Shown: one piece after another, positions 33,710-47,506 of the stretch
Layout: the number at the start of each line of letters is the position of its first letter
Numbering within the stretch: the first letter of the stretch is position 1
Origin: Actinoalloteichus fjordicus
Lineage (GTDB): Bacteria > Actinomycetota > Actinomycetes > Mycobacteriales > Pseudonocardiaceae
Direction: 5' to 3'
Assembly (NCBI RefSeq): GCF_001941625.1
Contig: NZ_CP016076.1
Span: forward strand, 5,626,001-5,690,000
DNA length: 64,000 bases
Notes under the pieces: model-generated
What the model was told of the DNA's origin: nothing
The model's database searches: none
The model's input: only the letters and a program-made list of their open reading frames with translations
Position numbers and translations under genes: made by a program

Positions 33710-34555
33710 TCAGCCGCCGAAACGCCGGGTCAGTCGGCGTTCCAGCAGTCCGACCAGTGAATAGAGCAGCCAGCCGATCAGGCACAGCAGGATCAGACAG
33801 ATCATCACGACCTGGACGTCGTCGTTGTCCTGCGCCTGCTTCTCCAGGTAGCCAAGCCCTGCGGTGGCACCGATGAACTCACCGATGACGGCGGCGGTGA
33901 CGGCCTGGAGCACGCCGACGCGCAGCCCGGCGGCGATCGCGGGGAGGCTGTAGGGCAGCTCGATGGTCAGCAGTCGGCGGGTTCCGCCGATGTCGAGCAC
34001 GTCGGCCAGGTCGTGCAGGGACTCCGACATGCCCCGCAGCCTGGTGACCATGGTGATCAGGATCGGGTAGAAGGTCACCAGGGCGATCAGAGTGATCTTC
34101 GATCCGATGCCGAGCCCCAGCCACAGCACGATCAGCGGGGCGATGGAGATCTTCGGCGTCACCTGCACCACGACGATGACGGGCATGAGCAGGCGCTCCA
34201 CCCACTGGACCCGGACGAACAGCACGGCGATCAGGACGCCGATCACCCCGCCGATGACCACGCCCTGGAGCACCTCGGCCAGCGTCTCCAGCAGGTGGAT
34301 CGCCAGGCCGCCCGTCTGCCAGAGGGAGACGGTCCTCGTCAGCAGTGCTCCGGGCGTCGGAAGCATGTGGTCTGGGACGCCGGAGAACGCGGCGATCAGC
34401 CACCACAGTGCGACGCCGCCTGCCAGGGACAGGGCGCCGACGAGCACCGGAGCAGGTCCGCCGTGATGGGCGTCGCGCGCGGGCCCGCTGCGGCCGGACC
34501 GGCCGCCGCTCCGCTTCGTCAGCCGATCGTCGACGCGGTCACTTGTCGATGTCAT
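33710..34555 (-). CDS. ABC transporter permease 2 (NitT/TauT family)
   Basis: The 281-residue protein has six predicted membrane helices after a polar N-terminal tail of about 35 residues. The BPD_transp_1 signature with the EAA-type loop is at SLHDLADVLDIGGTRRLLTIELPYSLPAIAAGLRVG. It resembles SsuC/TauC/ThiX-type permeases for small nitrogen, sulfur or pyrimidine compounds. It is the last gene of the four-gene importer operon and overlaps the binding-protein gene by 17 bp. Together with permease 1 it probably forms a heterodimeric channel, unlike Ssu or Tau systems, which use one permease. Confidence 0.88.
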   Translation of the reverse strand: MTSTSDRVDDRLTKRSGGRSGRSGPARDAHHGGPAPVLVGALSLAGGVALWWLIAAFSGVPDHMLPTPGALLTRTVSLWQTGGLAIHLLETLAEVLQGVVIGGVIGVLIAVLFVRVQWVERLLMPVIVVVQVTPKISIAPLIVLWLGLGIGSKITLIALVTFYPILITMVTRLRGMSESLHDLADVLDIGGTRRLLTIELPYSLPAIAAGLRVGVLQAVTAAVIGEFIGATAGLGYLEKQAQDNDDVQVVMICLILLCLIGWLLYSLVGLLERRLTRRFGG

Positions 34556-35579
34556 CTGCGTTCCTCACCAGGTCGGCGGCGTCGAAGGTCTCCTCGATCA
34601 GGCCGAACTCCGCCTGGGAGTCGATGGCGGCCTGCCACCGGTCCAGGTCGCCGTGGCCGAGGCCGTGCTCCCTCGTCTGATCGGACTGCCACAACTCGGC
34701 GACGAAGACCTCCCGCACGACGTCGGCGATCTCCGCGTTCTGTCCCTCGAAGGTCGGCGCGTACTTCTCGATCGCCATGTCGACGGTCTCCTCGACGTTG
34801 TCGATCGTGTGCTGGATGCCCGCGTCGAGCGCACGGGCGAAGCCGCCCGCCACCTGCGGCCGCAGCGAGGCCGTCTCCGGCCCGGTGATCAGGACGTTCC
34901 CGAAGGACGGCAGGTACTCGTCGCTGAGGATCTGTCCGACGTCCACTCCCGCCGTCCGCAGCGCGAAGTAGCGGAGTCGCGAGAAGGCGATCGCGTCGAC
35001 CTCGCCGTTCTGCAACGCCTGGACGATCGCGCCGGTCCCGATGGTGCGTAGCTGGACGTCGTCCAGGCTCAGCCCCTCTCGGGCGAGCATGGCCTGCAGC
35101 TGCGCATAGTTCGGGCTGCCCAGGTCCGTGACCGCCACCGAGCGACCCGCCAGGTCGGCGGGCGAGGAGATCCCGGAGGCGTTGTCGAACAGCAGCGCGC
35201 CGATGCCGCGCTGGTAGGTGGTGTGCACGACGGAGGTTCGGACGCCGTTCGCGCGGGCGGTGATCACCGAGTCGGCGTTGGGGAAGCCGAAGTCGACGTT
35301 GCCCGCCGCGACGTTCTGCACGATGTCCGCGCCGTTGGCGTAGCTGAACTCGACGTCCAGCCCCTCGTCGGCGAAGTAGCCCTGCTCGACCGCCGCGTAC
35401 AACGGGGCGTAGTAGGGCACCGCCGAGCCGTCGATCTGAATCGTGACGGCGGTCGTGTCACCCCCGCCCGCCAGCGAGGAGTCCCGCAGCATCGCGGCGG
35501 GACTGCACGCGCCGACCGCCAGCGCGGCGACGACGCCGAGCGCGGCCACGACGCGCGCGCCGAGTCGAGGAAGGTGCAT
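34539..35579 (-). CDS. ABC transporter substrate-binding lipoprotein (NMT1/THI5-like)
   Basis: The 346-residue product has a lipoprotein signal peptide with lipobox AVGAC (Cys25). The mature part is an NMT1/THI5-like or SsuA/TauA-type binding protein: VPYYAPLYAAVEQGYFADEGLDVEF, GNVDFGFPNADSVI and DLAGRSVAVTDLGSPNYA. This family binds pyrimidine-type compounds, sulfonates, nitrate and others. AAAGGA stands eight bases before the ATG at 35579. Because the operon is divergent from dihydroorotate-processing genes, a pyrimidine such as orotate or dihydroorotate is the best guess for its ligand, but this is inference from position. Confidence 0.87.
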   Translation of the reverse strand: MHLPRLGARVVAALGVVAALAVGACSPAAMLRDSSLAGGGDTTAVTIQIDGSAVPYYAPLYAAVEQGYFADEGLDVEFSYANGADIVQNVAAGNVDFGFPNADSVITARANGVRTSVVHTTYQRGIGALLFDNASGISSPADLAGRSVAVTDLGSPNYAQLQAMLAREGLSLDDVQLRTIGTGAIVQALQNGEVDAIAFSRLRYFALRTAGVDVGQILSDEYLPSFGNVLITGPETASLRPQVAGGFARALDAGIQHTIDNVEETVDMAIEKYAPTFEGQNAEIADVVREVFVAELWQSDQTREHGLGHGDLDRWQAAIDSQAEFGLIEETFDAADLVRNADDIDK

Positions 35580-35635
35580 CGGTCGGGTCCTTTCGGCAGG
35601 TCGCGACGGCCCGGCAGGTCGCGACGACGGTGCGG

Positions 35636-36460
35636 TCATCGCCATGGCAGCGCTCGCTTCTCCCACGCCGCAACGAGGGCGAATCCGGTGAGTCCGACGA
35701 TCACGGTGAGGACCACCGCCGCCAGGAGCTGCGGGGTGTCGTAGGTGCTGCGGCCCTGCACCATCAGGAAGCCGAGGCCCTGCTGCGCCGAGATGTACTC
35801 GGCGAGAAAGGCGCCGGTCATGGCGTCGACGACGGCGATCCTGGCCCCGGAGAACAGGGCGGGCAGGGCGGTGGGGAGCTGGATGACGGTGAAGAAGCGC
35901 CCAGGACCGAGATCCAGGACCCGCCCGAGGGCACGCTGCTCGTCGGTGACCTCACCGAGCCCGAGCATCATCGCGATCATCATCGGGAAGAAGGCGAGCA
36001 GCACGATCAGGGTGAGCTGCGAACCGAGACCGAGGCCGAACCACAGCACCAGCAGCGGCGCCAGCGCGATCTTGGGTGCGGCCTGGAGGATCACCACGTA
36101 CGGCGCGAGCACCATCCGCACGGTGCGGAAGGAGCTGAGCAGCCAGCCCAGCAACGAGCCGATGACCACGCCCGCCGCCAGGCCGATGACGATGTTGCGC
36201 AGGGTGTAGAAGAGGTGCGGCCACAGCTCGCCGCTCGTCATCAGGCCGCCGATCGAGGCCAGGACGGCCGTCGGTCCGGGCAGCAGGTAGGCGGGCACGT
36301 CCGCGACGGTGACGTAGAGCTGCCAGAGCAGCAGGACGACCGCGAGATACCCGAGGCCGACGGCGACGCGCCGCGCAGGGGACCGCTTCACCGGGGGGCC
36401 GGGTCGTCGGACTCGTGCCCTGCGCTGCGGGGCCGCGATGCGCTGTCGAACCGCGGTCAT
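35636..36460 (-). CDS. ABC transporter permease 1 (NitT/TauT family)
   Basis: The 274-residue protein has six membrane helices and the inner-membrane-component signature with the EAA-type loop at EQRALGRVLDLGPGRFFTVIQLPTALPALFSGARI. It starts inside the 3' end of the ATPase gene (ATGA overlap) and precedes the binding-protein gene by 56 bp. It is clearly related to permease 2 but not a close duplicate, so the importer probably uses a permease heterodimer. Confidence 0.88.
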   Translation of the reverse strand: MTAVRQRIAAPQRRARVRRPGPPVKRSPARRVAVGLGYLAVVLLLWQLYVTVADVPAYLLPGPTAVLASIGGLMTSGELWPHLFYTLRNIVIGLAAGVVIGSLLGWLLSSFRTVRMVLAPYVVILQAAPKIALAPLLVLWFGLGLGSQLTLIVLLAFFPMMIAMMLGLGEVTDEQRALGRVLDLGPGRFFTVIQLPTALPALFSGARIAVVDAMTGAFLAEYISAQQGLGFLMVQGRSTYDTPQLLAAVVLTVIVGLTGFALVAAWEKRALPWR

Positions 36461-37254
36461 CGCAGCTCACCTCGCAGCATGCCGACGAAGCGGGCGAACT
36501 CGGGAAGCTCACGGGTGGCAGCGGACCGGTTCCGGTCCAGCGGCACGTCGTGCACCGCCTGCAGCCGTCCCGGCCGAGGCGACATCACCACGACGCGGTC
36601 GGCCAGGTAGGCGGCCTCCTCCACGCTGTGCGTGACGAACACGATCGTCTTCCTGGTCTCCTCCCAGATGCGCAGGATGTCGTCGTGCAGGCGGTCCCTG
36701 GTGATGGCGTCGAGCGCGCCGAAGGGCTCGTCCATCAGCAGAATCCTCGGGTCGTAGGCCAGGGCACGCACGATCGCGACCCGTTGCCGCATCCCGCCGG
36801 ACAGCTCCTTGGGGAAGGACTTGGCGAAGCCGCTGAGTCCGACGAGTTCCAGCAGGGTGGCGACCCGCTCGTCGGCCCGGTCGAGCCGTTCCTTCTGCAC
36901 CTCGATGCCCAGGCGCACGTTGCGCTCGACCGTGCGCCAGGGCAGCAGCGCGGGCTCCTGGAACACGAAGCCGATGTCCCGTCCGGGCCGGGGCGGCCGT
37001 TCCCAGACGATCTCGCCGTCGTAGTCGTCGTCGAGTCCGGCGAGCATGCGCAGCAGAGTGGACTTGCCGCAGCCGGACGGGCCGATGATCGCGATGATCT
37101 CGCCCTCGTCGACCGTGAGGTTGACGTCGTCGAGTGCGTGCACGGTCTCGCCGTGCAGGCTCGTGTAGTCCTTGCTGACGCCCCGGACCGCCAGCAGGCC
37201 GCGCCCGGTGTCGGGCGACGAGGGCGGTGGGCTCGCATAGGCGTTGTGCGTCAC
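36457..37254 (-). CDS. ABC transporter ATP-binding protein (NitT/TauT family)
   Basis: This 265-residue cytosolic ATPase has Walker [10 protein letters not shown] (residues 58-66), a Q-loop in [10 protein letters not shown], signature LSGGMRQRV, Walker [13 protein letters not shown] and switch His in VTHSVEEA. The pattern is typical of the SsuB/TauB/ThiZ group. It is the first gene of the importer operon; the GTG start has GGAG seven bases upstream. Its promoter region of 302 bp is shared with the divergent uridine phosphorylase operon, so both units are probably controlled together by the IclR-type regulator. Confidence 0.9.
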
Positions 37255-37333
37255 GGTGCAGCTCCAGGGGATCGTCGCAAAACCTGGTCACAAATCGCGT
37301 TCGGTGCTGATTGAGCGTCGACGATAGGCATTG

Positions 37334-37350
37334 CTTCCGCGTTACGGAAG
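37334..37350. promoter_or_regulatory. IclR-type operator candidate, site 1
   Basis: CTTCCGCGTTACGGAAG has perfect 6-bp arms (CTTCCG/CGGAAG) around five bases. It lies 80 bp upstream of the importer ATPase gene. Site 2 repeats the same pattern in front of the other operon. Confidence 0.6.
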
Positions 37351-37531
37351 TGTTTGCCCGAAATTAGATCCGGCGAGATGCCCGCAGCCACGTGAGGTGG
37401 ATCTCCGACATACTCGCGACGTCTTGGCTGATCAGAGCGGAATGTATGCGATCCGTCACGGAGAAGAACGAGTCGGGAGCGGTTGACTCCAGACCTCGAC
37501 CACCCGCAGACTGTGCGATCTGAACAATGCT

Positions 37532-37548
37532 CTTCCATCTGACGGAAG
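37532..37548. promoter_or_regulatory. IclR-type operator candidate, site 2
   Basis: CTTCCATCTGACGGAAG repeats the CTTCC-N7-GGAAG layout of site 1, with 11 of 12 arm bases identical. It ends eight bases before the GTG of the uridine phosphorylase gene and overlaps its AAGGA ribosome site, so binding would block this operon directly. Confidence 0.6.
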
Positions 37549-37556
37549 GATGACCG

Positions 37557-38345
37557 GTGACTCGGAGTGCCGCTGATCCCTGGCTGAACGGCAGGCCCCC
37601 GCACCTCCCGATCTCCTCGGAGGAGGGCCTGCCCGCGATCTGTCTGCTTCCGGGCGACCCGGCTCGAGTGGACCGCGCCGGTCAGGTGCTCGACGACTTC
37701 CGGCTGCTCGGCCAGAACCGGGAGTTCCGCCTCGGTGTCGGCCGCGTCGGCGCCGTCGAGGTCGCGGTGTGCTCGACCGGCATCGGCGGACCGTCGACCG
37801 AGATCGCGCTCGTCGAGCTGGCCAGGCTGGGCGTCCACACCGTCATCCGGACCGGCGGCATGGGCGCGCTCGCCGCGCACATCGCCCCCGGCGACCTGTG
37901 CGTGGTGACCACGGCGGTACGGGACGGCGGCGCCGCCGCGTGCTACGCCGATCCGGCCACGCCCGCACAGTCCTCGCCCGAGGTGAGCGCGGCGCTGCGC
38001 GCCGCCGCGGCCTCCGCAGGGGAGACCCCGCACGACATCGGCGTGATCTCCTGCGACTCCTACTACGTCGGCGAGGGCAGGCCCGTCCCCGGCCTGGAAG
38101 GTCGAGCCGCCGCCCGGCTGGCCGAGATCGAGTCCCGGTCGGTGGACGGCATGGACATGGAGTGCGAGACGGTGCTCGTCGTCGGCGCCGCACTCGGACT
38201 CCGGGTCGGCGGCATCCTCGTCGCCCATGCCTCCCGAGCCACCGACCAGTGGCTGGAGGACTACGAGCCCGCGCAGCTCCGGATGCTGCGCGTCGCCGTG
38301 ACCGCAGCAGGCGAGCTGGGCCGGGCTCCGACGGAGGCCCGATGA
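37557..38345 (+). CDS. Uridine phosphorylase-type nucleoside phosphorylase
   Basis: The 262-residue product belongs to the PNP/UDP superfamily: ICLLPGDPARVDRA at the phosphate-binding N terminus, CSTGIGGPSTEIALVEL, RTGGMGAL, and the catalytic-site GMDMECETVLVVGAALGLRVGG. It would split a pyrimidine nucleoside into base and ribose 1-phosphate in the cytosol. The GTG start has AAGGA six bases upstream and overlaps the proposed operator. It is the first gene of the pyrimidine operon and overlaps the dihydroorotate dehydrogenase gene by ATGA. Uridine is the family substrate; here an orotate nucleoside is conceivable from context. Confidence 0.85.
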   Translation: MTRSAADPWLNGRPPHLPISSEEGLPAICLLPGDPARVDRAGQVLDDFRLLGQNREFRLGVGRVGAVEVAVCSTGIGGPSTEIALVELARLGVHTVIRTGGMGALAAHIAPGDLCVVTTAVRDGGAAACYADPATPAQSSPEVSAALRAAAASAGETPHDIGVISCDSYYVGEGRPVPGLEGRAAARLAEIESRSVDGMDMECETVLVVGAALGLRVGGILVAHASRATDQWLEDYEPAQLRMLRVAVTAAGELGRAPTEAR

Positions 38346-39379
38346 GTGCTTCCCCCGCACACGTCCTGCCCGATGAGGACGGCGTCGCCGGGCACCACGG
38401 CGACGCGCGCGACCGGTTCTTCGCCGATGCCGCTGCGCTCGACGTCGACATGTCGGTGGACCTCGGGCCGCTGCGGCTGCGCAATCCGGTCATGCCCGCC
38501 TCCGGCTGCTTCGGCCCCGAACTCGCGCCGCTGGTCCCGATGCACGAGGTCGGCGCAAGCGTCACCAAGACGGTCTTCTCCGGGCGGCGTGGCGGGAACC
38601 CGGCCCACCGACTCACCGAGACCAGCACGGGGATGATCAACAGCGTCGGCATCCCCAGCCTGGGCACCCCGACGTTCCTCCGCGACGTGCTGCCCCGGTA
38701 CCGGGCGCTCGGCGTGCCCGTCGTGGTCAGTCTCGGCGGCCTGACGGTCGCGGAGTACCTGACCGTGGCGGAGGAGCTGACCGACGCGGAGGGCGACACG
38801 GGAACGGCGGAGCCGCCCGGCCGGTTCGAGGCCGTCGAGGTGAACGTCTCCTGCCCGAACCTGGAGGGCGGCGGCCTGGAGATCGGGACCGATCCGGCGA
38901 CGGTCGCCGCGGTGGTCGCCGGAGTCGTGGCCCGCGTCGACGTGCCCGTGCTGGTCAAGCTGACCCCGATGGTGTCCTCCATCGAGGAGGTGGCCCGCGC
39001 CGCCGAGGAGGCAGGCGCGGCCGGGCTGACCGTCGCCAACTCCTTTCCCGGCATGGTCCTCGACCGACACACCCGACGTCCCGTGCTCGGCAACCGGGTC
39101 GGCGGCGTGTCCGGACCGGCCGTGAAGCCCCTCGCACTCCGGCTCGCCTGGACCGCGGCACAGGCCGTCGACATCCCCGTCATCGGCTGCGGCGGCATCG
39201 AGACGGCCCACGACGCCCTCGACTTCCTCGAAGTGGGCGCCGCAGCCGTCCAGATCGGCACCGCTCACTTCACGAAGCCCTACATCATGGTGGAGATCAT
39301 CCGTGAGCTCGCCGCCATGACCAGGGCGGCGGGCGCGACACGGCTCACCGACTACGTCCAAGGACTGGGGCGCAGATGA
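38342..39379 (+). CDS. pyrD: Dihydroorotate dehydrogenase, class 1B catalytic subunit
   Basis: The 345-residue FMN TIM-barrel protein has the class 1 hallmarks: LRNPVMPASGCFG at the N terminus, the catalytic Cys171 in VEVNVSCPNLEGGG, LVKLTP, and the phosphate-binding GCGGIETAHDALDFLEVGAAAVQIGT split over two loops. A cysteine base and the presence of a PyrK-type gene four genes downstream place it in class 1B, which exchanges electrons with NAD. Class 1B enzymes can run in either direction; the catabolic neighbours suggest reduction of orotate to dihydroorotate. The ATG overlaps the upstream stop (ATGA), and its own stop overlaps the IclR start. It is unlikely to be the only biosynthetic PyrD of the genome. 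Confidence 0.9.
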   Translation: MSASPAHVLPDEDGVAGHHGDARDRFFADAAALDVDMSVDLGPLRLRNPVMPASGCFGPELAPLVPMHEVGASVTKTVFSGRRGGNPAHRLTETSTGMINSVGIPSLGTPTFLRDVLPRYRALGVPVVVSLGGLTVAEYLTVAEELTDAEGDTGTAEPPGRFEAVEVNVSCPNLEGGGLEIGTDPATVAAVVAGVVARVDVPVLVKLTPMVSSIEEVARAAEEAGAAGLTVANSFPGMVLDRHTRRPVLGNRVGGVSGPAVKPLALRLAWTAAQAVDIPVIGCGGIETAHDALDFLEVGAAAVQIGTAHFTKPYIMVEIIRELAAMTRAAGATRLTDYVQGLGRR

Positions 39380-40179
39380 CCGCCGACAAGCCCATGCAGG
39401 TCGTCGTGAGAGCACTCGACGTACTCACGTCGCTCACCGAATCGGACCGAGGGAAGACCCTCCAAGACCTGCACGAGGAGCTGGGCATCCCGCTGGGCAG
39501 CCTGCACCGGCTGCTCGCGACGCTGGTGGATCGGTACTTCGTCAGCCGATCGCCCGTGAACAAGCGGTACTTCCTCGGCCCGGCCGCACGGAAGCTGGGC
39601 GGCTTCGCCGCAGGCGGCGGAAGCAGCCTGGTCGCGCCGCCGCCCGCACTGGCCTCGGCGGCGGCCGAGAGCGGCGAGACCGTCTTCGCCACCGAGATGA
39701 TCGGACGGGAACCGGTGTGCGTCGCGCTGGTGGAGGCCCGCCACCCGCTCCGGCTGTTCGTCCGCATCGGCCAGGAGATGCCACTGCACGCGGCGGCGGC
39801 GAGCCGATCGATCCTCGCCTTCCTGCCGGAGGACCTCGTTCGATCCTTACTGGAGTCGACCACCCTGACCGGCTTCACCACCGACACCCCGCGCACCGTC
39901 GACGAGGTGATGGCCCACCTGAAGACGGTGCGGGCACAGGGGTACGACGTCTGCTCCGACGAACTCGATCGGAACGTGTGGGCGGTGGCCGCTCCGGTGA
40001 TCGCCGCCGACCAGACGGTCACATCCAGCGTCACCCTGGCGGCGGCGTCCTCCCGGATGACCAGTCCGTTGGCCAGGACCCGCGCCATCGAGATCACCCT
40101 GCGCACGGCCAGGGAGCTGTCGCTCGGCCTCGGCTGGTCGGACGAGGAGGCACTGGCTATGGAGAGAGGACGGCAATGA
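39376..40179 (+). CDS. IclR-family regulator of the pyrimidine operon
   Basis: The 267-residue protein has an IclR winged helix at residues 8-70 (VVRALDVLTSLTESDRGKTL, LGIPLGSLHRLLATLVDR) and an IclR effector domain with the usual GQEMPLHAAAASRSILAFL segment and a C-terminal AAPVIAADQTVTSSVTLA strand. It binds a small effector and DNA in the cytosol. It is embedded in the operon, with ATGA overlaps on both sides, so its level follows operon expression. The two CTTCC-N7-GGAAG palindromes in the divergent promoter are natural targets. Effector candidates are orotate, dihydroorotate or carbamoyl-aspartate; this is inference. Confidence 0.9.
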   Translation: MTADKPMQVVVRALDVLTSLTESDRGKTLQDLHEELGIPLGSLHRLLATLVDRYFVSRSPVNKRYFLGPAARKLGGFAAGGGSSLVAPPPALASAAAESGETVFATEMIGREPVCVALVEARHPLRLFVRIGQEMPLHAAAASRSILAFLPEDLVRSLLESTTLTGFTTDTPRTVDEVMAHLKTVRAQGYDVCSDELDRNVWAVAAPVIAADQTVTSSVTLAAASSRMTSPLARTRAIEITLRTARELSLGLGWSDEEALAMERGRQ

Positions 40180-40739
40180 GCACCCGAACGGCACCGGACG
40201 CCCCGACCCGCGTCGCCATCGGACCTGCCGGGTCCGGCGCAGGCGCGCACGGCGGATCAGACGGGCTCGACCTGACCGAACTCCGGGCAGACCTGCTCGC
40301 CACGGCCGTCGTCCCGGGCCCCACCCCGGAGCAGACCCTGGCCCGCACCCTCGACGACCCCGGCTGGGTGGTCCGGCCCTCGCTGCTGCGCCGCGCCGCC
40401 GAGGTGCTGGCGCGCGAGCTGCCCCGATCCGTCGATCGCGTCATCGCCCCGCGACCGGCGGACGCCGCACTGGCCACGGCCGTCTCGCTGCACACCGGTC
40501 TCCCCTTCGCGGTGCTGGGCACGGGGGCGGCGATCGGTTCGCCGACGTCGACCGGCACCGAGCAGGCGCCATCGGCCGCCGACGCGCCTGTCGTGATCCT
40601 CGGCGAGGTGCACGGGCTCGAGACCGTCGCGCTGATCGGAGCGGTCCCCGCCCCCGCGAGGTTCGAACTGGAGAGCTGGGTCGCCCGGCAGCGCCTCACC
40701 GTCGCGCGCTGGTCGACCCTCCTCCACGCGCTGAGCTGA
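40176..40739 (+). CDS. Phosphoribosyltransferase-like protein A, no PRPP loop
   Basis: The 187-residue product looks like the orotate phosphoribosyltransferase fold: VRPSLLRRAAEVLARELP helix, RVIAPRPADAALATAVSLHTGLPFAVL in the place where OPRT has its FGPAYKGI region, and a later strand APVVILGEVHGLETVALIGA. In active enzymes that last strand carries the acidic PRPP motif (VDDVITTG-type); here the two adjacent acids and the TG are missing. The protein may therefore bind a pyrimidine without PRPP chemistry, or be a partner of protein B. The first 30 residues are Ala/Gly-rich and probably disordered. ATG overlaps the IclR stop. Fold assignment is by pattern only. Confidence 0.6.
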   Translation: MSTRTAPDAPTRVAIGPAGSGAGAHGGSDGLDLTELRADLLATAVVPGPTPEQTLARTLDDPGWVVRPSLLRRAAEVLARELPRSVDRVIAPRPADAALATAVSLHTGLPFAVLGTGAAIGSPTSTGTEQAPSAADAPVVILGEVHGLETVALIGAVPAPARFELESWVARQRLTVARWSTLLHALS

Positions 40740-40804
40740 CCGCGAGAACCGCCCGTATCGCGATCCCCACCACAGATCGCGCCGCCGTACGAGGGAGAGA
40801 ACCG

Positions 40805-41251
40805 ATGAACAGTCCCATCCCACGCGCCGACGTCGTGGCCGCGGCGCGCGAGCTGATCGACACCGCCGAGGATCAGACCGGCGCCACGCTGGACCTCTCG
40901 CGCTCGCCCGCCGCAGCCGAGCGGCTCGGCCGGATCGCGGCCGCCGAACTGCGCAGCCACGCGGTGGACCTCGTCGTCGCCTGGGACGACGCCCGCGACG
41001 CCGTGCTGAGCCACATCGCGGCGCGGGAACTCGGCGTGGCGCGGGTGACGGTGTACGAGGATCTCGGCCAGGTGATCGTCGCGGCGCACCGTCTGCACGG
41101 GGCACGACTCGGCGTGGTGTTCGCGACCGAGGACGATCGACACGATCTGGGACCGCTCACCGCGATCACGACCCGCGGCGGCGGCGAGGTCGTCGCGACC
41201 GTGGTCGCCGTCCGGTCCGACGAGCTGGCCGCAGCATCGGAGCGGTCGTGA
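40805..41251 (+). CDS. Phosphoribosyltransferase-like protein B, no PRPP loop
   Basis: This 148-residue protein also follows the OPRT-like layout: LGRIAAAELRSHAVDLVVAW, an acidic turn, then AVLSHIAARELGVARVTVYE and a final ARLGVVFATEDDRHDLGPL where the PRPP loop would be. The TEDD sequence keeps acids but not the T-x-x-T-G pattern. It follows protein A after 65 bp with its own GAGGGAGAG ribosome site. Its stop overlaps the GTG of the M20 hydrolase gene. A pair of half-degenerate PRTase-like proteins suggests a heteromer or ligand sensors. Function unknown. Confidence 0.6.
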   Translation: MNSPIPRADVVAAARELIDTAEDQTGATLDLSRSPAAAERLGRIAAAELRSHAVDLVVAWDDARDAVLSHIAARELGVARVTVYEDLGQVIVAAHRLHGARLGVVFATEDDRHDLGPLTAITTRGGGEVVATVVAVRSDELAAASERS

Positions 41252-42594
41252 CCCCCGTCGGGCCGCCTGCCACGGCGGCCGTCGAAGCAGTGAGCGAGCC
41301 GACCGGCACGCCTCGTCGCCTGGCCCCCCGAGCCGATCGTATTCGCGCCGACCTCGAGCATTTCGCGACGCTGAGCGAGCCGGGACCTGGCGTGACCAGG
41401 CTGGCCTTCACGGAGCTGGAACGGGCGGCGCACCGGTACGCCGCCGAGGAACTGGCGGCGCTGGGCTGCCGGGTGCACACCGACGTCGCAGGCAACACGA
41501 TCGCCGAGCTGCCGGGCTCCGTGGCCGGGGCGCCTGCGATCGGCAGCGGGTCCCACCTGGACAGCGTCCCGTCGGGCGGGCGCTTCGACGGCATCGCGGG
41601 CGTGGTCGCCGCCGTGGAGGTGGCCCGGCTGCTGGCCGAATCCGACATCCGACTCCGTCACCCCTATCGCGTGGTCGTCTTCGCCGCCGAGGAGGGCGCC
41701 CGCTTCGGCCAGGCCTGCACCGGCAGCCGCATCGTCGCCGGGCTGACCGACTCGGCCGACCTCGATCGGCTCACCGATCACGAGGGGACCACGATGGCCG
41801 AGGCGATGCGCTCGGTCGGGCTGGCCCCGGACCGCGCCGGCGAGGCCCGGTGGGACGCCGCCGACTGGCTGGCCTTCCTCGAACTGCACATCGAGCAGGG
41901 CAGCGTGCTGGAGTCCTCGGACCTGCCGTTGGGGATCGTCGACGTGATCTCCGGCAGCACCCGGCTGGAGATCACGCTGAGCGGGGTGGCCTCGCACACC
42001 GGCGGAACGCCGATGCACCTGCGGTCGGACGCCCTCGCGGCGGCCGCCGAACTGGTGCTGGCGGCGGAGTCGTTGGCCTGGGACTCCCGGCATCACGGCA
42101 CCAGGGCCACGGTCGGACGGCTGACGGTGCTGCCGGGCGCGCTGACGACCATCCCCGGCTCGGTCGTCCTCGGCGTGGACGTCCGCGACGTCGACAGCGT
42201 CCGGCAACGGGCCACCGTCCGCGAGTTCCTCGACCATGCGGCGGGTGTGGCCGTCCGGCGCGGCGTCGGCTTCTCGCATCGTCTGCTGGCCGACACCTCC
42301 CCCGTCGTCCTGCCCGCCGGGCTGCGGGCGCAGCTCATCGGCGCGGCGGAGCGCACCGGGACGGCGTATCGCGTCATGCCCAGCGGGGCCAGCCACGACA
42401 GCCAGATGGTCAACCGCGTCGTGCCTGCCGGGATGCTCTTCGTGCCGAGCCGCGACGGTCTCAGTCACACCCCCGCCGAGTGGACGTCGGTGGAGCAGAT
42501 CGTCGAGGGCACCGCCGTACTCGCCGAGGCGGTCCTCGGCATGGACTCGGCAGACGGCCTCGAACCAGGACCCGCCCAGGACGGCGGATCATGA
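41248..42594 (+). CDS. M20-family N-carbamoyl amino acid hydrolase
   Basis: The 448-residue protein is in the M20 subgroup of allantoate amidohydrolases, beta-ureidopropionases and N-carbamoyl-L-amino acid hydrolases. Metal ligands are visible: His103 in SGSHLDSVPSGG, bridging Asp114 in RFDG, the Glu pair in FAAEEGARFG, His in LELHIEQGSVLE, and a late His in LSHTPAEW. The SGASHDSQMVNRV segment is typical of the subgroup. In this operon its logical substrate is N-carbamoyl-L-aspartate made by dihydroorotase, releasing aspartate, ammonia and CO2 (ureidosuccinase activity). The GTG overlaps the upstream stop and the end overlaps the PyrK-like ATG. Family call is firm; substrate is inferred. Confidence 0.85.
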   Translation: MTPVGPPATAAVEAVSEPTGTPRRLAPRADRIRADLEHFATLSEPGPGVTRLAFTELERAAHRYAAEELAALGCRVHTDVAGNTIAELPGSVAGAPAIGSGSHLDSVPSGGRFDGIAGVVAAVEVARLLAESDIRLRHPYRVVVFAAEEGARFGQACTGSRIVAGLTDSADLDRLTDHEGTTMAEAMRSVGLAPDRAGEARWDAADWLAFLELHIEQGSVLESSDLPLGIVDVISGSTRLEITLSGVASHTGGTPMHLRSDALAAAAELVLAAESLAWDSRHHGTRATVGRLTVLPGALTTIPGSVVLGVDVRDVDSVRQRATVREFLDHAAGVAVRRGVGFSHRLLADTSPVVLPAGLRAQLIGAAERTGTAYRVMPSGASHDSQMVNRVVPAGMLFVPSRDGLSHTPAEWTSVEQIVEGTAVLAEAVLGMDSADGLEPGPAQDGGS

Positions 42595-43454
42595 CGGGCC
42601 CCGTGACCCCCCGGGGAATCGTGGACCGGATCGCGGCCCTGCCCGAGGCGACGCGGCCGACGCCGACCTGGGACGAGTGCGCGGTGCTGCGCCACGAGCA
42701 TCTCGGGGACGCGCATCACCGGCTGGTCCTCCGCTCTCCGACGATCTCCGAACGCACTCGGGCGGGCCAGTTCGTGATGGTCACGATCCCGGCAGGGGTG
42801 GCGGCCCGCTCGGTGCTGCCCAGGCCGATGGCCGTCCATCGCAGACGGGCATCCGACGACTCCTTCGAGATCGTCTACCGGGCGGGCGGCGCGGGCACGC
42901 GGGCGCTGACCGCCGTCCGCCCCGGCGAGTCGCTGCTGATCACCGGCCCGCTGGGGCAGGGCTTCACGCTGTCGCCGGAGACGGATCGACTGCTCGTGGT
43001 CGGACGCGGCATCGGCGTCTGCTCGATCATGACGGTGGTCGAGGACGCGGTGCGACACGAGGTCGCGGTGACCGGCGTCCTCAGCGCCAGGACCGAGGAG
43101 GCCCTGGTGGGCGGCGCGGACCTGGCGGAGCTCGGCGTCACCGAGGCGGTCACCGTGACGGACGAGGCGGGGACGAGCGACGTCGACCGCCTGGCGAGGA
43201 GACTGCGCACGCTGCTCGACGAGCGCCCTCCGCAGCAGATCATGGTCTGTGGATCGGATCGGCTCGCGCGGCTCTGCGGCGAGCTGGCGGCCCGCTGGGG
43301 CTCGACGGTGCAGGTCTCCCTGGAGGCGCACATGGCCTGCGGACTGGGCTACTGCCACGGCTGCGCGAGCGCCGCAGCCACCACCGAGGGCGAGAGCCCG
43401 CTCATCTGCGCCGACGGCCCGGTCTTCGCGCTGACCGACGGGGAGCGGACGTGA
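42591..43454 (+). CDS. pyrK: Dihydroorotate dehydrogenase electron-transfer subunit (PyrK-like)
   Basis: The 287-residue protein has a ferredoxin-reductase-type FAD domain (RPMAVHR, YRAGGAGTRAL), an NAD-binding domain (LLVVGRGIGVCSIM) and a C-terminal [2Fe-2S] domain with the PyrK pattern C-x4-C-x2-C...C in ACGLGYCHGC and LICADGPVF. It passes electrons between NAD(H) and the FMN subunit PyrD. ATGA overlap with the M20 gene and GTGA overlap with the dihydroorotase gene show tight coupling. Unusually it is separated from pyrD by four genes. It begins about 30 residues earlier than typical PyrK proteins (VTPRGIVDRIAALPEATRPT region). Confidence 0.88.
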   Translation: MTGPVTPRGIVDRIAALPEATRPTPTWDECAVLRHEHLGDAHHRLVLRSPTISERTRAGQFVMVTIPAGVAARSVLPRPMAVHRRRASDDSFEIVYRAGGAGTRALTAVRPGESLLITGPLGQGFTLSPETDRLLVVGRGIGVCSIMTVVEDAVRHEVAVTGVLSARTEEALVGGADLAELGVTEAVTVTDEAGTSDVDRLARRLRTLLDERPPQQIMVCGSDRLARLCGELAARWGSTVQVSLEAHMACGLGYCHGCASAAATTEGESPLICADGPVFALTDGERT

Positions 43455-44722
43455 CGAGCCTGCGACTACGTCGAGTACGGCCGTTGGGCGGCCCCGCCGT
43501 GGACGTCGAGGTCACCGCCGGGCGGATCAGCGCGATCGGGGAGCCGTCGACGGGCCCGCTGGGGGCCGGGGAGATCGACGGTCGGGACGCGGTGCTGCTG
43601 CCCGGCCTGGTCGACCTGCACACCCACCTCCGAGAGCCGGGCGGGGAGGACGCCGAGACCGTCCGCTCCGGTACGGCGTCCGCAGCGGCGGGCGGCTTCA
43701 CCGACGTGTTCGCCATGGCCAACACCTCGCCGGTCACCGACACCGTCGCCCGCGTTGAGCAGCTCGCCGACCTCGCCGACGGCGCCTCGACCAGGGTGCA
43801 CCCGGTCGCCGCCGTGACGGTCGGGCTTAACGGCGAACGGCTCACCGACCTGGCGGCACTGCGAGCCGCAGGCGTGCGGATGTTCTCCGACGACGGCCGC
43901 TGCGTCGACAACACGCGTCTGGTCGATCAGGCCCTGCGACGGCTCGGGCCGCTGGGCGGTGTCCTGGCCCAGCACGCCCAGAGCGAGGCGCTGGCGGCAG
44001 GCGGCCAGATCGATGCGAGCATCGCGGGCGCGCTCGGGCTGACCCCGTGGCCGATGGTCGCCGAGGACGTCGTGGTGGCCAGGGACGTCCTGCTGGCGAT
44101 GGAGCATGACGCACCGCTGCACGTCTGCCATGTCTCCTCCCCCGGCACTCTCGCGGTGCTGGACTGGGCACGGCGACGCGGCGCCCGCGTCACGGCCGAG
44201 GTGACGCCCCACCACCTGCTGCTCGACACGGACGCCTGCGCCACCGCCGACCCCTCGGTGAAGGTCAATCCGCCGCTACGCCCGCCCGCCGTGCCGCCGC
44301 TGTTGCGGCAGGCACTCCGCGAGGGCGTCATCGACGTCGTCGCCACCGATCACGCTCCCCATCCCGACCATCGCAAGCGTGGTACGTGGGCGGCGGCGGC
44401 CTTCGGCCTGACCGGTCTGGAGACCGCGTTGGCCGTGGTCGCCGAGGTGTTCACCGAGAAGTCCGGAGTGGACTGGACGGGCGTCGCCCGCGTCCTCTCG
44501 CACCGACCCGCTGTCATCGGCGACATCGCCGACCGCGCGGGCCGCCCGCCTGCCGTGGGCGAAACCGCGAGCTTCTGCCTGGTCGCCTCGGACACGCCGT
44601 GGGAAGTGCGGGCGGACGAGACACGCAGCGCCTCCCGGAACTCTCCGTTCATCGGCCGCGTCTTCGCGCACCGGGTGACGTTGACGGTCTGTGCGGGGCG
44701 AATCACCTTCTCGGCCGACTGA
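43451..44722 (+). CDS. pyrC: Dihydroorotase, class I
   Basis: The 423-residue amidohydrolase has the metal motif LHTHLREPG with His57, His59 and Arg61 as in dihydroorotases, FSDDGRCV, AQHAQSEALA, HVCHVSSPGTL, VTAEVTPHHLLL and DVVATDHAPHP with the catalytic Asp. It opens dihydroorotate to N-carbamoyl-aspartate reversibly. These motifs fit dihydroorotase better than dihydropyrimidinase, which has a different His-x-His context and a carboxylated Lys. It is the last gene of the operon; the GTG overlaps the PyrK-like stop. In a catabolic setting it would work in the hydrolytic direction, pulled by the M20 hydrolase. Confidence 0.9.
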   Translation: MTSLRLRRVRPLGGPAVDVEVTAGRISAIGEPSTGPLGAGEIDGRDAVLLPGLVDLHTHLREPGGEDAETVRSGTASAAAGGFTDVFAMANTSPVTDTVARVEQLADLADGASTRVHPVAAVTVGLNGERLTDLAALRAAGVRMFSDDGRCVDNTRLVDQALRRLGPLGGVLAQHAQSEALAAGGQIDASIAGALGLTPWPMVAEDVVVARDVLLAMEHDAPLHVCHVSSPGTLAVLDWARRRGARVTAEVTPHHLLLDTDACATADPSVKVNPPLRPPAVPPLLRQALREGVIDVVATDHAPHPDHRKRGTWAAAAFGLTGLETALAVVAEVFTEKSGVDWTGVARVLSHRPAVIGDIADRAGRPPAVGETASFCLVASDTPWEVRADETRSASRNSPFIGRVFAHRVTLTVCAGRITFSAD

Positions 44723-45040: not shown

Positions 45041-46429
45041 TCAGGCGCCGAAGACCGGCGGGGCCACCTTGCGGTCGTCACCGAAGACATCGGCGTCCTC
45101 CAGCAGATAGTCCGCGCGCTGGTGTTCCTTGTCTTCCTCGCCGTCGCCGCCACGCCCACCCGCGCCGCCGCCTGCCATGCCCGCACCGCCTGCCGCACCG
45201 CCGCCTGCCGGGCCGAACCCGCCGCCGGGCAGTCGGCCACCCGAGGAACCGCCGACACCGCTCGGCCCGCCAGGACCGAAACCACCGCCGGGACTACCGG
45301 GACCACCAGGCCCGAAACCAGCACCCGGGCCGAAACCACCCGGCATCCGCCCCCCGTTGAGGCCACCGGGCACCCTGCCGCCGGGGCCCCCGCCCGGGCC
45401 GAAACCGCCAGGCCGGCCGCCAGGAGGCCCACCAGGTCCACCCGCTCGTCCGCCACCCGGAACTCCAGGACCGCCGAACCCGCCACCCGGGGCGAAACCG
45501 CCTTGACCAGGCGGTGGTCCACCGGGTGGGTAGCCGCCGGGATGGGGAAGGTTGCCGCCGGGTGCGACGGGAACGCTCGGGCCGCCGCCAGGGGCGTTCG
45601 AATCCGTGCCGATGCCCGGCGCGGGCGCCGGTCCGTATCCGCCGGGCCGTGATCCACCGCCATTGGAACCGTCGGGGCCGGCGATGCCTCCCGAGCCGCC
45701 GCCGAAGCCGGAGCCGCTGCCGCCGGAGCCGCCAGAACCATCAGGTCCAGCGGGGAGCGCGTTGTTCGGCGACGTCCAGCCACCACCCGGCCCGCCGTCG
45801 TTCCCACCCCCAGGAGAACTCGGGCTCAGCGACGGATCGCCGTTCTCCAGCGGAGTCGCGATCGCATCACTGCCCAATGCGTAGTCGGCAGGCGGCGGCG
45901 GAGCGAAGGCCGGGATGCTCTGCAGACGCGCGTTGGACTCGTCCTGGTAGGCGGACATCGCCTGGCGAGCGACTCGGTTCTCCTCCTCATAGACGTCGAC
46001 CCGATCGGAGTGTCCGGTCCATTCGGAAGGCAGGAAACTCTCGAAACCCTCCTTGGCGGGCGGTCCGGCAGCGGGGTTCTCCGGTGTGTCCCAGCGGACG
46101 CTCCGGTGGGCGAGGCCTTGCACCGAGACGGTGCTGCCGATCGCCAATGCCTGTTCCCGCGCCTGTCGGGTGTACTCGGCGAGCGGCGTGACCGCAGCCT
46201 GTGAGGCATCGGCGGCCGTCCCGGTGTGGGCGGCGGCCGCCTTCTTGATCGCCGTGTCGAGGTACTCCCCGATCCGATCGAAGTCGGCGGCTACATCACT
46301 CCACTGGCGGAACAATTCGCCGAAATCACCGCCATTTCCAGGAGCGTCGAGCTGCTGCCTCAACTGGTGCGCAGTTCGACTCTCAAAATTGACATCTGTT
46401 GTCTCTAGACGCTCCGCAGGCCCATCCAT
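45041..46429 (-). CDS. PPE-like protein with long Gly/Pro-rich region (type VII cluster 2)
   Basis: The 462-residue protein has an N-terminal helical domain of about 180 residues resembling actinobacterial PPE/WXG substrates (FGELFRQWSDVAADFDRIGEYLD, helical AAVTPLAEYTRQAREQALA). About 240 residues of Gly/Pro/Ser low-complexity sequence follow, built on repeats such as GGFGPGG. It ends in a conserved-looking acidic tail, ADYLLEDADVFGDDRKVAPPVFGA in two parts. Such tails end many Pseudonocardiales PPE-like proteins and may be a secretion or chaperone signal. ATG 46429 has GGAGG seven bases upstream. It follows the lipoprotein gene by 14 bp in the same transcript. Secretion by a type VII system is inferred. 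Confidence 0.72.
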   Translation of the reverse strand: MDGPAERLETTDVNFESRTAHQLRQQLDAPGNGGDFGELFRQWSDVAADFDRIGEYLDTAIKKAAAAHTGTAADASQAAVTPLAEYTRQAREQALAIGSTVSVQGLAHRSVRWDTPENPAAGPPAKEGFESFLPSEWTGHSDRVDVYEEENRVARQAMSAYQDESNARLQSIPAFAPPPPADYALGSDAIATPLENGDPSLSPSSPGGGNDGGPGGGWTSPNNALPAGPDGSGGSGGSGSGFGGGSGGIAGPDGSNGGGSRPGGYGPAPAPGIGTDSNAPGGGPSVPVAPGGNLPHPGGYPPGGPPPGQGGFAPGGGFGGPGVPGGGRAGGPGGPPGGRPGGFGPGGGPGGRVPGGLNGGRMPGGFGPGAGFGPGGPGSPGGGFGPGGPSGVGGSSGGRLPGGGFGPAGGGAAGGAGMAGGGAGGRGGDGEEDKEHQRADYLLEDADVFGDDRKVAPPVFGA

Positions 46430-46443
46430 CAATCCACCTCCAC

Positions 46444-47064
46444 TCACGCATCCGGAAGTTCTGGAACAACGGCTTCAGCTAGACGAAATGCCTGGTCGCA
46501 AGAATCTAGATCATCTGGCTGATCCGGACCGCGCGACGACCGGAACGAGATGTACTGCGAGTCAGACAGACCAACGTGCACATCACAGATAGAGGAGTCG
46601 TCCGACCCGCCGATCGTGGCCTGCACCCCAGGATTTCCGCCGACCGAGAACTCGGTAAAATCAGAGAAGAGTTCTTCCTGGTCGTAAAACAAGGATAGAC
46701 CGCCACGATCGTCCCTGACGTTCACACTGACCCCAGCAAGCGAATCATCCAGCGGGGCCCAGCGGCACGCCTCATAGCCCTCGGCCTCGTCACGCCGCCC
46801 CGAAGGATCGAATCCGGCAGTAGCAGCAGCAGCGGGGGAGACGAGTTCACAGACGTCCAAACCAGTGGCATCCTTCGGATCCCGCACCACAGGAACAGAG
46901 GGGTCAGCAGACTGTCCCGACACATCAGGCTCAGTCGCGCCGGTCTCATCGGCCGCACTCGTGACAGCCGGCGATGCCGAGCCACCACTTTCCACACTAC
47001 AGGCACTTAGTATCAGAAAATACAGTCCCACCAAGGAAAGCCGTCGCAACGAAGTGATATTCAT
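46444..47064 (-). CDS. DUF3558-like putative lipoprotein (type VII cluster 2)
   Basis: The 206-residue product has a signal peptide with lipobox ILSAC (Cys22), a Ser/Thr/Asp-rich linker of about 55 residues, and a C-terminal DUF3558-like domain with the paired-Cys segments LDVCELVSPAAAATAGFD and YEACRWAPLDD, a QATIGGSDDSSICDVHVG strand and a last Cys-containing helix. ATG 47064 is preceded by GGGAG. It lies between a helical protein and the PPE-like protein in one transcript. Its position and domain match the lipoprotein at 15845-16474 in the first cluster, so each cluster carries its own surface lipoprotein. Confidence 0.75.
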   Translation of the reverse strand: MNITSLRRLSLVGLYFLILSACSVESGGSASPAVTSAADETGATEPDVSGQSADPSVPVVRDPKDATGLDVCELVSPAAAATAGFDPSGRRDEAEGYEACRWAPLDDSLAGVSVNVRDDRGGLSLFYDQEELFSDFTEFSVGGNPGVQATIGGSDDSSICDVHVGLSDSQYISFRSSRGPDQPDDLDSCDQAFRLAEAVVPELPDA

Positions 47065-47092
47065 CCGACTCCCATTCGGATCAAGTAATTCA

Positions 47093-47506
47093 TTAGACCG
47101 CAGTCTGCCTATTGCCGTCACGGCGTCCATTATGCGCCGCCTGCCGCTCCCAATATCCAGTAGCCTGGGGCACCTCGGACGCAGAAAGGTCGTAATCCGG
47201 GAGCTGATTGACGTCCTCTAGTTCCAGGTAGTCGGCAAGCATTCTTTTAAATTTCGCACGTGTTTCAGAGATGGCGTCCGTCAGCCCTCGCCCGGTAGCC
47301 GCAAGAGAACCGACAGTCGGGTCATCGGCAAGTCGATTCAGTTGCACGGCAGCGTTATCACTTACCTCGTCGACGCCATTGCCAGGCCTGATCAGCGCCA
47401 TATCTCGACTTCGCTCCAGCAGTGCCTGCGCCGCAATGTACGCCGCTTCCAGGTCTGCGATTGCCTGAGGCAGCTTCTCTGGGTCGAGCTCGTATGCGTC
47501 AGTCAC
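47093..47506 (-). CDS. Helical type VII-associated protein (137 aa)
   Basis: The protein starts VTDAYELDPEKLPQAIADLEAAY and continues as two long helices, with RPGNGVDEVSDNAAVQLNRLA between them, like the start of EspC-like or WXG-type accessory proteins. No WXG motif is visible. GTG 47506 is preceded by GGGGTGG two to three bases away; GTG 47512 is an alternative, and the frame reaches 47563. It heads the second type VII cluster, 28 bp before the lipoprotein gene. Function is inferred from position. Confidence 0.65.
   Translation of the reverse strand: MTDAYELDPEKLPQAIADLEAAYIAAQALLERSRDMALIRPGNGVDEVSDNAAVQLNRLADDPTVGSLAATGRGLTDAISETRAKFKRMLADYLELEDVNQLPDYDLSASEVPQATGYWERQAAHNGRRDGNRQTAV

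Follow-up and report, generated by a model that had tools for sequence, protein, structure and literature searches.

Within a 64-kb stretch of the single-contig, 7.12-Mb genome of Actinoalloteichus fjordicus (G000:C1:5626001-5690000; hereafter the window), a four-gene importer on the minus strand (33710-37254) is divergent from an eight-gene operon on the plus strand (37557-44722). This operon is probably a regulated catabolic operon for orotate and, in the version found in the window, probably for orotidine too. We infer its substrate (orotate, dihydroorotate, or orotidine), its direction, and its physiological role, as well as a heterodimer of two phosphoribosyltransferase (PRTase)-like proteins, PRTL1 and PRTL2, and the role of that heterodimer. 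A first-pass annotation had described a divergent importer-operon pair with ATGA or GTGA overlaps at most junctions. This description is borne out: every gene that it named lies where it was placed and belongs to the family given, and at six of the seven operon junctions the genes overlap by 4 bases (ATGA or GTGA), whereas a 65-base gap separates the PRTL1 and PRTL2 genes. The features are as follows (positions in the window).

33710..34555, minus: ATP-binding cassette (ABC) importer permease 1 (BPD_transp_1); L069 orthologue at 94%
34539..35666, minus: substrate-binding protein, NMT1/THI5 family (PF09084, 6.8e-37); start codon uncertain
35636..36460, minus: ABC importer permease 2 (BPD_transp_1)
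36457..37254, minus: ABC importer ATPase, NitT/TauT type (PF00005)
37334..37350, no strand: candidate IclR operator, palindrome CTTCCGCGTTACGGAAG, near the importer promoter
37532..37548, no strand: second candidate IclR operator, palindrome CTTCCATCTGACGGAAG, 8 bases before the phosphorylase start
37557..38345, plus: nucleoside phosphorylase, divergent and uridine-phosphorylase-like (PNP_UDP_1; PF01048, 1.7e-26)
38342..39379, plus: PyrD class 1B, dihydroorotate dehydrogenase (DHODH) catalytic subunit (NF005574)
39376..40179, plus: IclR-family regulator (PF01614 and PF09339)
40176..40739, plus: PRTL1, apparently a decayed homologue of PyrE (orotate phosphoribosyltransferase [OPRT]) without the phosphoribosyl pyrophosphate (PRPP) motif
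40805..41251, plus: PRTL2, a second pseudo-enzyme of PRTase fold; the M20 gene follows directly
41248..42594, plus: M20 N-carbamoyl-L-amino-acid hydrolase (TIGR01879), proposed ureidosuccinase (N-carbamoyl-aspartate hydrolase)
42591..43454, plus: PyrK, flavin adenine dinucleotide/[2Fe-2S] electron-transfer subunit for PyrD 1B (PF10418)
43451..44722, plus: class I dihydroorotase, the second copy in the genome (TIGR00857)

In the proposed pathway, the NMT1/THI5-type importer would take up an orotate-type compound, and the phosphorylase would cleave a nucleoside to free orotate and a sugar phosphate. PyrD1B-PyrK would reduce orotate with NADH to dihydroorotate, the second dihydroorotase would open the ring to yield N-carbamoyl-L-aspartate, and the M20 enzyme would hydrolyze this to aspartate, CO2, and ammonia, pulling the chain. 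The M20 hydrolysis step is irreversible and would therefore set the direction of the pathway. The IclR regulator would control both divergent promoters via the two palindromes, while PRTL1 and PRTL2 would most likely pair, bind orotate, PRPP, or a nucleotide, and tune the pathway, PRTL2 possibly via the M20 enzyme.

Enzymes of the proposed chain

PyrD scores above two curated class 1 models (310.1 versus 269 bits for NF005574 and 271.4 versus 270 bits for TIGR01037), and its nearest solved structures are DHODHs (5ue9, 8e-64, and the B enzyme 1ep1, 5.5e-63). The class 1B catalytic residue Cys171 is found in all 78 rows of the alignment, and the site residues Lys76, Asn100, Asn168, Cys171, Asn173, Lys206, and Asn233 are kept in 77 to 78 of them, biosynthetic outgroups included. 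PyrK matches PF10418 (37.8 versus a cut-off of 23.9), and its Fe-S cysteines 250, 255, 258, and 273 are invariant in a 7-row alignment. It is nevertheless divergent, as FAD_binding_6 (18.2 versus a cut-off of 21.1) and all PRK00054 models fall below cut-off. The pair has the sequence features of class 1B, and NAD-linked activity is predicted.

The dihydroorotase exceeds the cut-off of TIGR00857 (329.5 versus 279) but misses that of the stricter NF006836 (485 versus 538), and its nearest solved structure is 3mpg (7e-73). Its HxH and metal ligands and its substrate residues are conserved in 20 to 26 of 27 rows (Arg61 in 25, Asn91 in 22). The M20 protein belongs to the hydantoinase/carbamoylase subfamily (TIGR01879, 370.9 versus a cut-off of 204 bits) and is closest among solved structures to 3n5f, an N-carbamoyl-L-amino acid hydrolase (8e-76); its residues for metal binding and catalysis are conserved in 43 of 45 rows. 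The roles of active-site residues in these three families, including the holding of the substrate carboxylate by the dihydroorotase Arg and Asn, are those that we take to be general for each family. Judged by these features, PyrD, the dihydroorotase, and the M20 protein look competent, the first two appearing to be of dihydroorotate type, and gene context suggests that the M20 protein is a ureidosuccinase acting on N-carbamoyl-L-aspartate.

Separate biosynthetic pyrimidine genes

A second, biosynthetic set of pyr genes is present elsewhere in the genome: pyrR-pyrB-pyrC-carA-carB-pyrF form one run (L019), each above its curated cut-off, and are complemented by a quinone-type class 2 PyrD (552 bits versus a cut-off of 433) and a housekeeping PyrE at genome position 6955160 (112.7 versus 106.8 bits). 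The concern that the window might hold the only pyr genes of the genome therefore does not apply. The window dihydroorotase is 50% identical to the biosynthetic PyrC copy, and the PyrK-type Fe-S domain occurs once in the genome, in the window. This second gene set and the relatives in other genera described below support the original proposal of a pyrimidine-utilization locus distinct from the biosynthetic genes.

Conservation and lineage of the cluster

A scan of 84,980 named genomes with the PyrK alignment yielded 135 relatives, the best 80 of which were inspected; adding six relatives from the family and removing five repeats gave 81 loci. A core locus was defined by PyrD1B, PyrK, and M20, each at ≥90 bits, and gene absences at clade loci refer to the fetched flanks. 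The core set was found in 40 of the 81 loci, across actinobacteria and Chloroflexota, so that conservation of the cluster in other actinobacteria, which the first-pass annotation had put forward for checking, was found across genera. The hosts are Actinoalloteichus, Wenjunlia, Streptomyces, Microbacterium and other Microbacteriaceae (including one Cryobacterium and one Naasia), Nonomuraea, Pseudonocardia, Prauserella, Sciscionella, Saccharopolyspora, Micromonospora, a Nitriliruptorales metagenome-assembled genome (MAG), and Chloroflexota MAGs. IclR is present in 33 of these 40 loci. The ring opener is dihydroorotase-type in 19 and allantoinase-type in 12, with none in reach in 9, and the transporter is a NitT/TauT importer in 13 and a major facilitator superfamily (MFS) protein in 18, with neither in 9.

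A congener (L069, 65 to 96% identity) and Actinoalloteichus caeruleus (L070, the same as L075; 40 to 80% identity) have the operon genes in identical order, which is therefore not due to chance. Of 200 genomes from the family, 7 (own genome included) have a PyrD1B at E 1e-50, one of them a congener at 90% identity. In the class as a whole the cluster genes are rare, PRTL2 being detected at E 1e-6 in 3 of the 394 genomes sampled (own included). No relative of the window PyrD was found in a search of viral contigs.

Some loci depart from this arrangement. A second cluster type (L071 to L074; also L109, L116, L117, L129, and L132) has asparaginase and IclR genes on one side and, divergent from them, genes for cyclodeaminase-like, allantoinase-like, and MmgE/PrpD proteins, PyrD1B, MFS, PRTL2, M20, and PyrK. 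At L024 (G217), which has no PyrD, a dihydroorotase-M20-PRTL2 run is accompanied by IclR, a UbiD-family decarboxylase, an NMT1-type binding protein, and, judged from the translation, a maleate-isomerase-like protein.

The PyrK tree (111 rows) includes 44 M20-linked sequences, three of which (L076, L124, and L131) have no PyrD in the fetched piece, and 29 biosynthetic PyrKs of the class. The 44 and 27 other PyrKs form a clade (100/99) apart from the biosynthetic ones. Biosynthetic actinobacterial pyrD-pyrK loci employ the same PyrD and PyrK families (PyrKs ∼30% identical), but all 29 have PyrD plus carB or pyrF adjacent, and no M20 gene was found beside them in the fetched 3.0 to 3.8 kb. In the flanks of the 71 clade loci, window included, carA, carB, and pyrB were not found at E 1e-10, and pyrF was found in three (L127, L128, and L130), where the pyrF homologue would fit a salvage branch to UMP.

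M20 linkage is uneven within the clade, with seven changes, in part due to 22 Cryobacterium loci in which PyrD and PyrK stand alone (e.g., L084, L089, L103, and L112), and the proposal that all 71 loci are catabolic was rejected on account of these 22. In seven of these 22 (L089, L091, L103, L112, L113, L115, and L120), pyrD is preceded by a candidate IclR palindrome. All nine Cryobacterium genomes tested hold more than one PyrD-family match above cut-off, the matches in G597 being split pieces, as do four of the five Chloroflexota genomes tested, the remaining one (G600, a 2.2-Mb assembly) having a single match.

Phosphorylase, importer, and candidate operators

The predicted nucleoside phosphorylase stands at the level of the superfamily (PF01048) but falls below both uridine phosphorylase cut-offs (156 versus 280 bits for TIGR01718 and 132 versus 262 bits for a second model). 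A uridine phosphorylase identity was rejected on the curated cut-off, and alignment with Escherichia coli Udp revealed no decisive residue. Its distribution follows the importer: the phosphorylase occurs in 10 of 13 NitT/TauT loci, 0 of 18 MFS loci, and 0 of 9 loci with neither (NitT/TauT versus MFS, Fisher 6e-6, a value that ignores kinship). The simplest reading is that the importer also brings in a nucleoside, e.g., orotidine, which the phosphorylase would split. For the importer ATPase, models of taurine and nitrate ATPases are among the best NCBIfam matches, none of which reaches its cut-off. Among solved relatives of the binding protein, 3qsl, an exported protein with no assigned function, comes first, followed by the formyl-aminopyrimidine binder 3ix1 (3.4e-15) and THI13/THI5.

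The 64 kb contain two copies of the motif CTTCCN7GGAAG, against 0.02 expected, and both lie inside the 302-base divergent promoter region; none of 100 shuffles contained two. Both palindromes are kept in L069 and one, as TTCCGTGTTGCGGAA, in L070. The looser TTCCRN5YGGAA gave 25 matches in 21 loci over 70 relatives, whereas 11 control half-sites gave 0 to 8 matches. Of the 25, 20 precede a cluster gene; these fall in 17 loci, several of which are near relatives. Among the controls, GGAA half-sites accounted for 8 matches, all upstream, and the others for 0 to 5; TTCC half-sites with a 4-base spacer gave 14 matches, 11 of them upstream. Because the GGAA and 4-base-spacer versions also stand out, the operator definition is not exclusive. 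TTCC/GGAA half-sites fit IclR-family operators, and the two palindromes are candidate IclR operators at both divergent promoters.

Two PRTase-fold proteins without PyrE signatures

The first-pass annotation had listed two PRTase-like proteins. Both are PRTases by profile and fold, and the first derives from the PyrE family, but neither PRTL1 (187 residues) nor PRTL2 (148 residues) matches any Pfam model. Fold and detectable homology place both window proteins in the type I PRTase superfamily, yet they fail as PyrE enzymes on both counts: neither matches the PyrE model TIGR00336 at E 0.01, and neither has the PRPP motif. This motif is present in 0 of 44 PRTL2 proteins and in 11 of 32 PRTL1 proteins; the predicted structure of PRTL2 is a confident PRTase fold despite its loss. 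The window PRTL1 is, by its sequence relationships, a decayed PyrE homologue. The protein in the PRTL1 slot exceeds the PyrE cut-off in G023 (127 versus 107 bits), in all seven Chloroflexota scanned, and in one Nitriliruptorales. Among the 40 core loci, PRTL1 is found in 28, PRTL2 in 38, and either in 39.

An OPRT-family assignment of both proteins was kept for PRTL1 only, PRTL2 being nearer adenine phosphoribosyltransferase (APRT) by fold and PDB profile. That the two might be unrelated to each other was also considered and rejected, as iterative profiles merged both; since profile merging can drift, the relationship was checked by hhalign, the comparison being to canonical PyrE and, for PRTL2, also to two unrelated controls. 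In the class sample, PRTL1 matches occurred in 12 genomes (own included) in mixed contexts. Six of the neighborhoods (L021 to L026) adjoin M20, and in five others (L027 to L031) no cluster gene was found at E 1e-4. At L022, L023, L025, and L026, a PRTL1-M20 pair lies beside amidohydrolases without PyrD or PyrK, and the L023 protein scores 61 bits against the PyrE model.

A joint reading of these proteins, which as a whole we regard as possible but doubtful, has three parts. The pseudo-PRTase pair would sense orotate, PRPP, or nucleotide level and gate the carbamoyl-aspartate hydrolase; in actinobacteria, this sensor would have arisen by stepwise decay of the PyrE seen in Chloroflexota clusters; and the orotidine phosphorylase and importer of the NitT/TauT version would be new gains. 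Orotate would then be burned only once nucleotide synthesis is satisfied.

Alternative explanations

Several observations weigh against orotate catabolism. Class 1B PyrD and dihydroorotase are reversible, and sequence therefore cannot give the direction of the chain. The cluster is patchy, one of the two congeners examined having no PyrD1B at E 1e-50. No ring opener was found in the flanks of nine of the 40 core loci; in type 2 clusters this enzyme is allantoinase-like, and the MmgE/PrpD protein, cyclodeaminase-like protein, and asparaginase found in most type 2 clusters have no obvious use in orotate breakdown. The 22 Cryobacterium loci fall in the same clade with PyrD-PyrK alone and no M20. 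The phosphorylase-importer link rests on related genomes, so that the Fisher value overstates independence, and three NitT loci have no phosphorylase: L080, which is cut by a contig end at the importer, and two from Micromonospora, in one of which (L119) a LacI-type regulator adjoins the importer. Finally, PRTL2 is nearer APRT than OPRT both by fold and by profile against solved structures, and the 12 core loci without PRTL1 fall outside the PyrE-based argument for orotate.

Reductive uracil or thymine catabolism would proceed by parallel chemistry, with PyrD-PyrK as dihydropyrimidine dehydrogenase, the ring opener as dihydropyrimidinase, and the M20 protein, which is homologous to beta-alanine synthase, as beta-ureidopropionase; the phosphorylase, nearest to uridine phosphorylase, would free uracil from uridine. 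The allantoinase/hydantoinase-like enzyme of type 2 clusters and a PRTL2 that is not clearly OPRT are in keeping with this scheme, as are the class I DHODH-like dihydrouracil oxidases of fungi (PMC9585004). We nevertheless consider it unlikely: PyrD passes the DHODH model but reaches only 116 of 335 bits with PreA, and it retains both the Cys of class 1B and the GMxNSVGIPS loop, while the ring opener keeps the dihydroorotase Arg and Asn and scores 124 of 393 bits as a dihydropyrimidinase. Orotate rather than uracil is also indicated because the PyrE-family PRTL1 is present in 28 of 40 core loci.

Salvage or back-up biosynthesis, in which orotate or orotidine monophosphate would be made from imported dihydroorotate or carbamoyl-aspartate, could draw on the PyrE proteins above cut-off in Chloroflexota and G023 and on PyrF in the flank of 3 of 71 loci. 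It is very improbable for the window, where the M20 carbamoyl hydrolase would destroy carbamoyl-aspartate, the PRPP motif is missing from PRTL1 and PRTL2, carA, carB, and pyrB were not found nearby, and biosynthetic genes already exist in the genome. There is similarly only a slight chance that enzymes borrowed from the pyrimidine pathway degrade another cyclic ureide, e.g., hydantoin or a modified pyrimidine acid. Against ErtE, a carbamoyl-glutamate hydrolase, the M20 protein reaches 404 of 520 bits, and at L022 to L026, which have no PyrD, M20 and a PRTL gene are found together with other amidohydrolases or UbiD, but the redox and ring-opening partners in the window are of dihydroorotate type with conserved substrate residues.

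Relation to known systems and implications

Clostridium (Zymobacterium) oroticum ferments orotate anaerobically in the reductive direction. The gene content of the window fits this pathway, with a class 1B DHODH, a dihydroorotase, and a carbamoyl-aspartate hydrolase step; PMC10395836 lists the C. oroticum DHODH as class 1B. The cluster described here differs in occurring in actinobacteria and Chloroflexota with an importer, IclR, a phosphorylase, and two PRTase-fold pseudo-enzymes, the comparison with C. oroticum being one of pathway, not of gene cluster. The reductive uracil pathway (PreTA/Pyd) shares parallel reduction, ring opening, and carbamoyl hydrolysis, but the PyrD and ring opener of the window are DHODH type and dihydroorotase type, respectively; parallel reaction modules of purine and pyrimidine pathways are treated in PMC4016543. 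Another system for comparison is PurR of Bacillus subtilis. PurR is a PRTase-fold regulator that is not known to be catalytic, whereas here the regulator is IclR, and PRTL1 and PRTL2, at only 187 and 148 residues, have no Pfam DNA-binding match.

To our knowledge, few genes have been assigned to the biochemical pathway of orotate degradation. A literature search, with subscription journals mostly outside its coverage, found no description of such a gene cluster. We found no previous account of a cluster defined in actinobacteria and Chloroflexota, of the pair of pseudo-PRTases, of the link between phosphorylase and importer, or of the palindromes. The decayed PyrE in the PRTase-like pair, the phosphorylase-importer link, and the operator palindromes also go beyond the first-pass annotation. 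If orotate catabolism is correct, a searchable gene set with an importer, a regulator, and a candidate operator becomes available in Streptomyces and Actinoalloteichus that can be cultured. N-carbamoyl-aspartate hydrolase would then have a candidate gene, as perhaps would orotidine phosphorylase, and the widely kept pseudo-enzymes would form a family whose function is directly testable. In such genomes, the neighbors of a PyrD, PyrK, or dihydroorotase copy should be checked before the copy is annotated as biosynthetic.

Neighboring genes

Downstream of the operon, a DUF3558 lipoprotein gene (46444-47130) adjoins one for a glycine-rich protein without a Pfam match (45041-46447), both on the minus strand. 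On the plus strand, positions 47966-52786 encode an SF1-type helicase of 1606 residues whose C-terminal domain is an MTES_1575 nuclease; the protein resembles defense-type helicase-nucleases.

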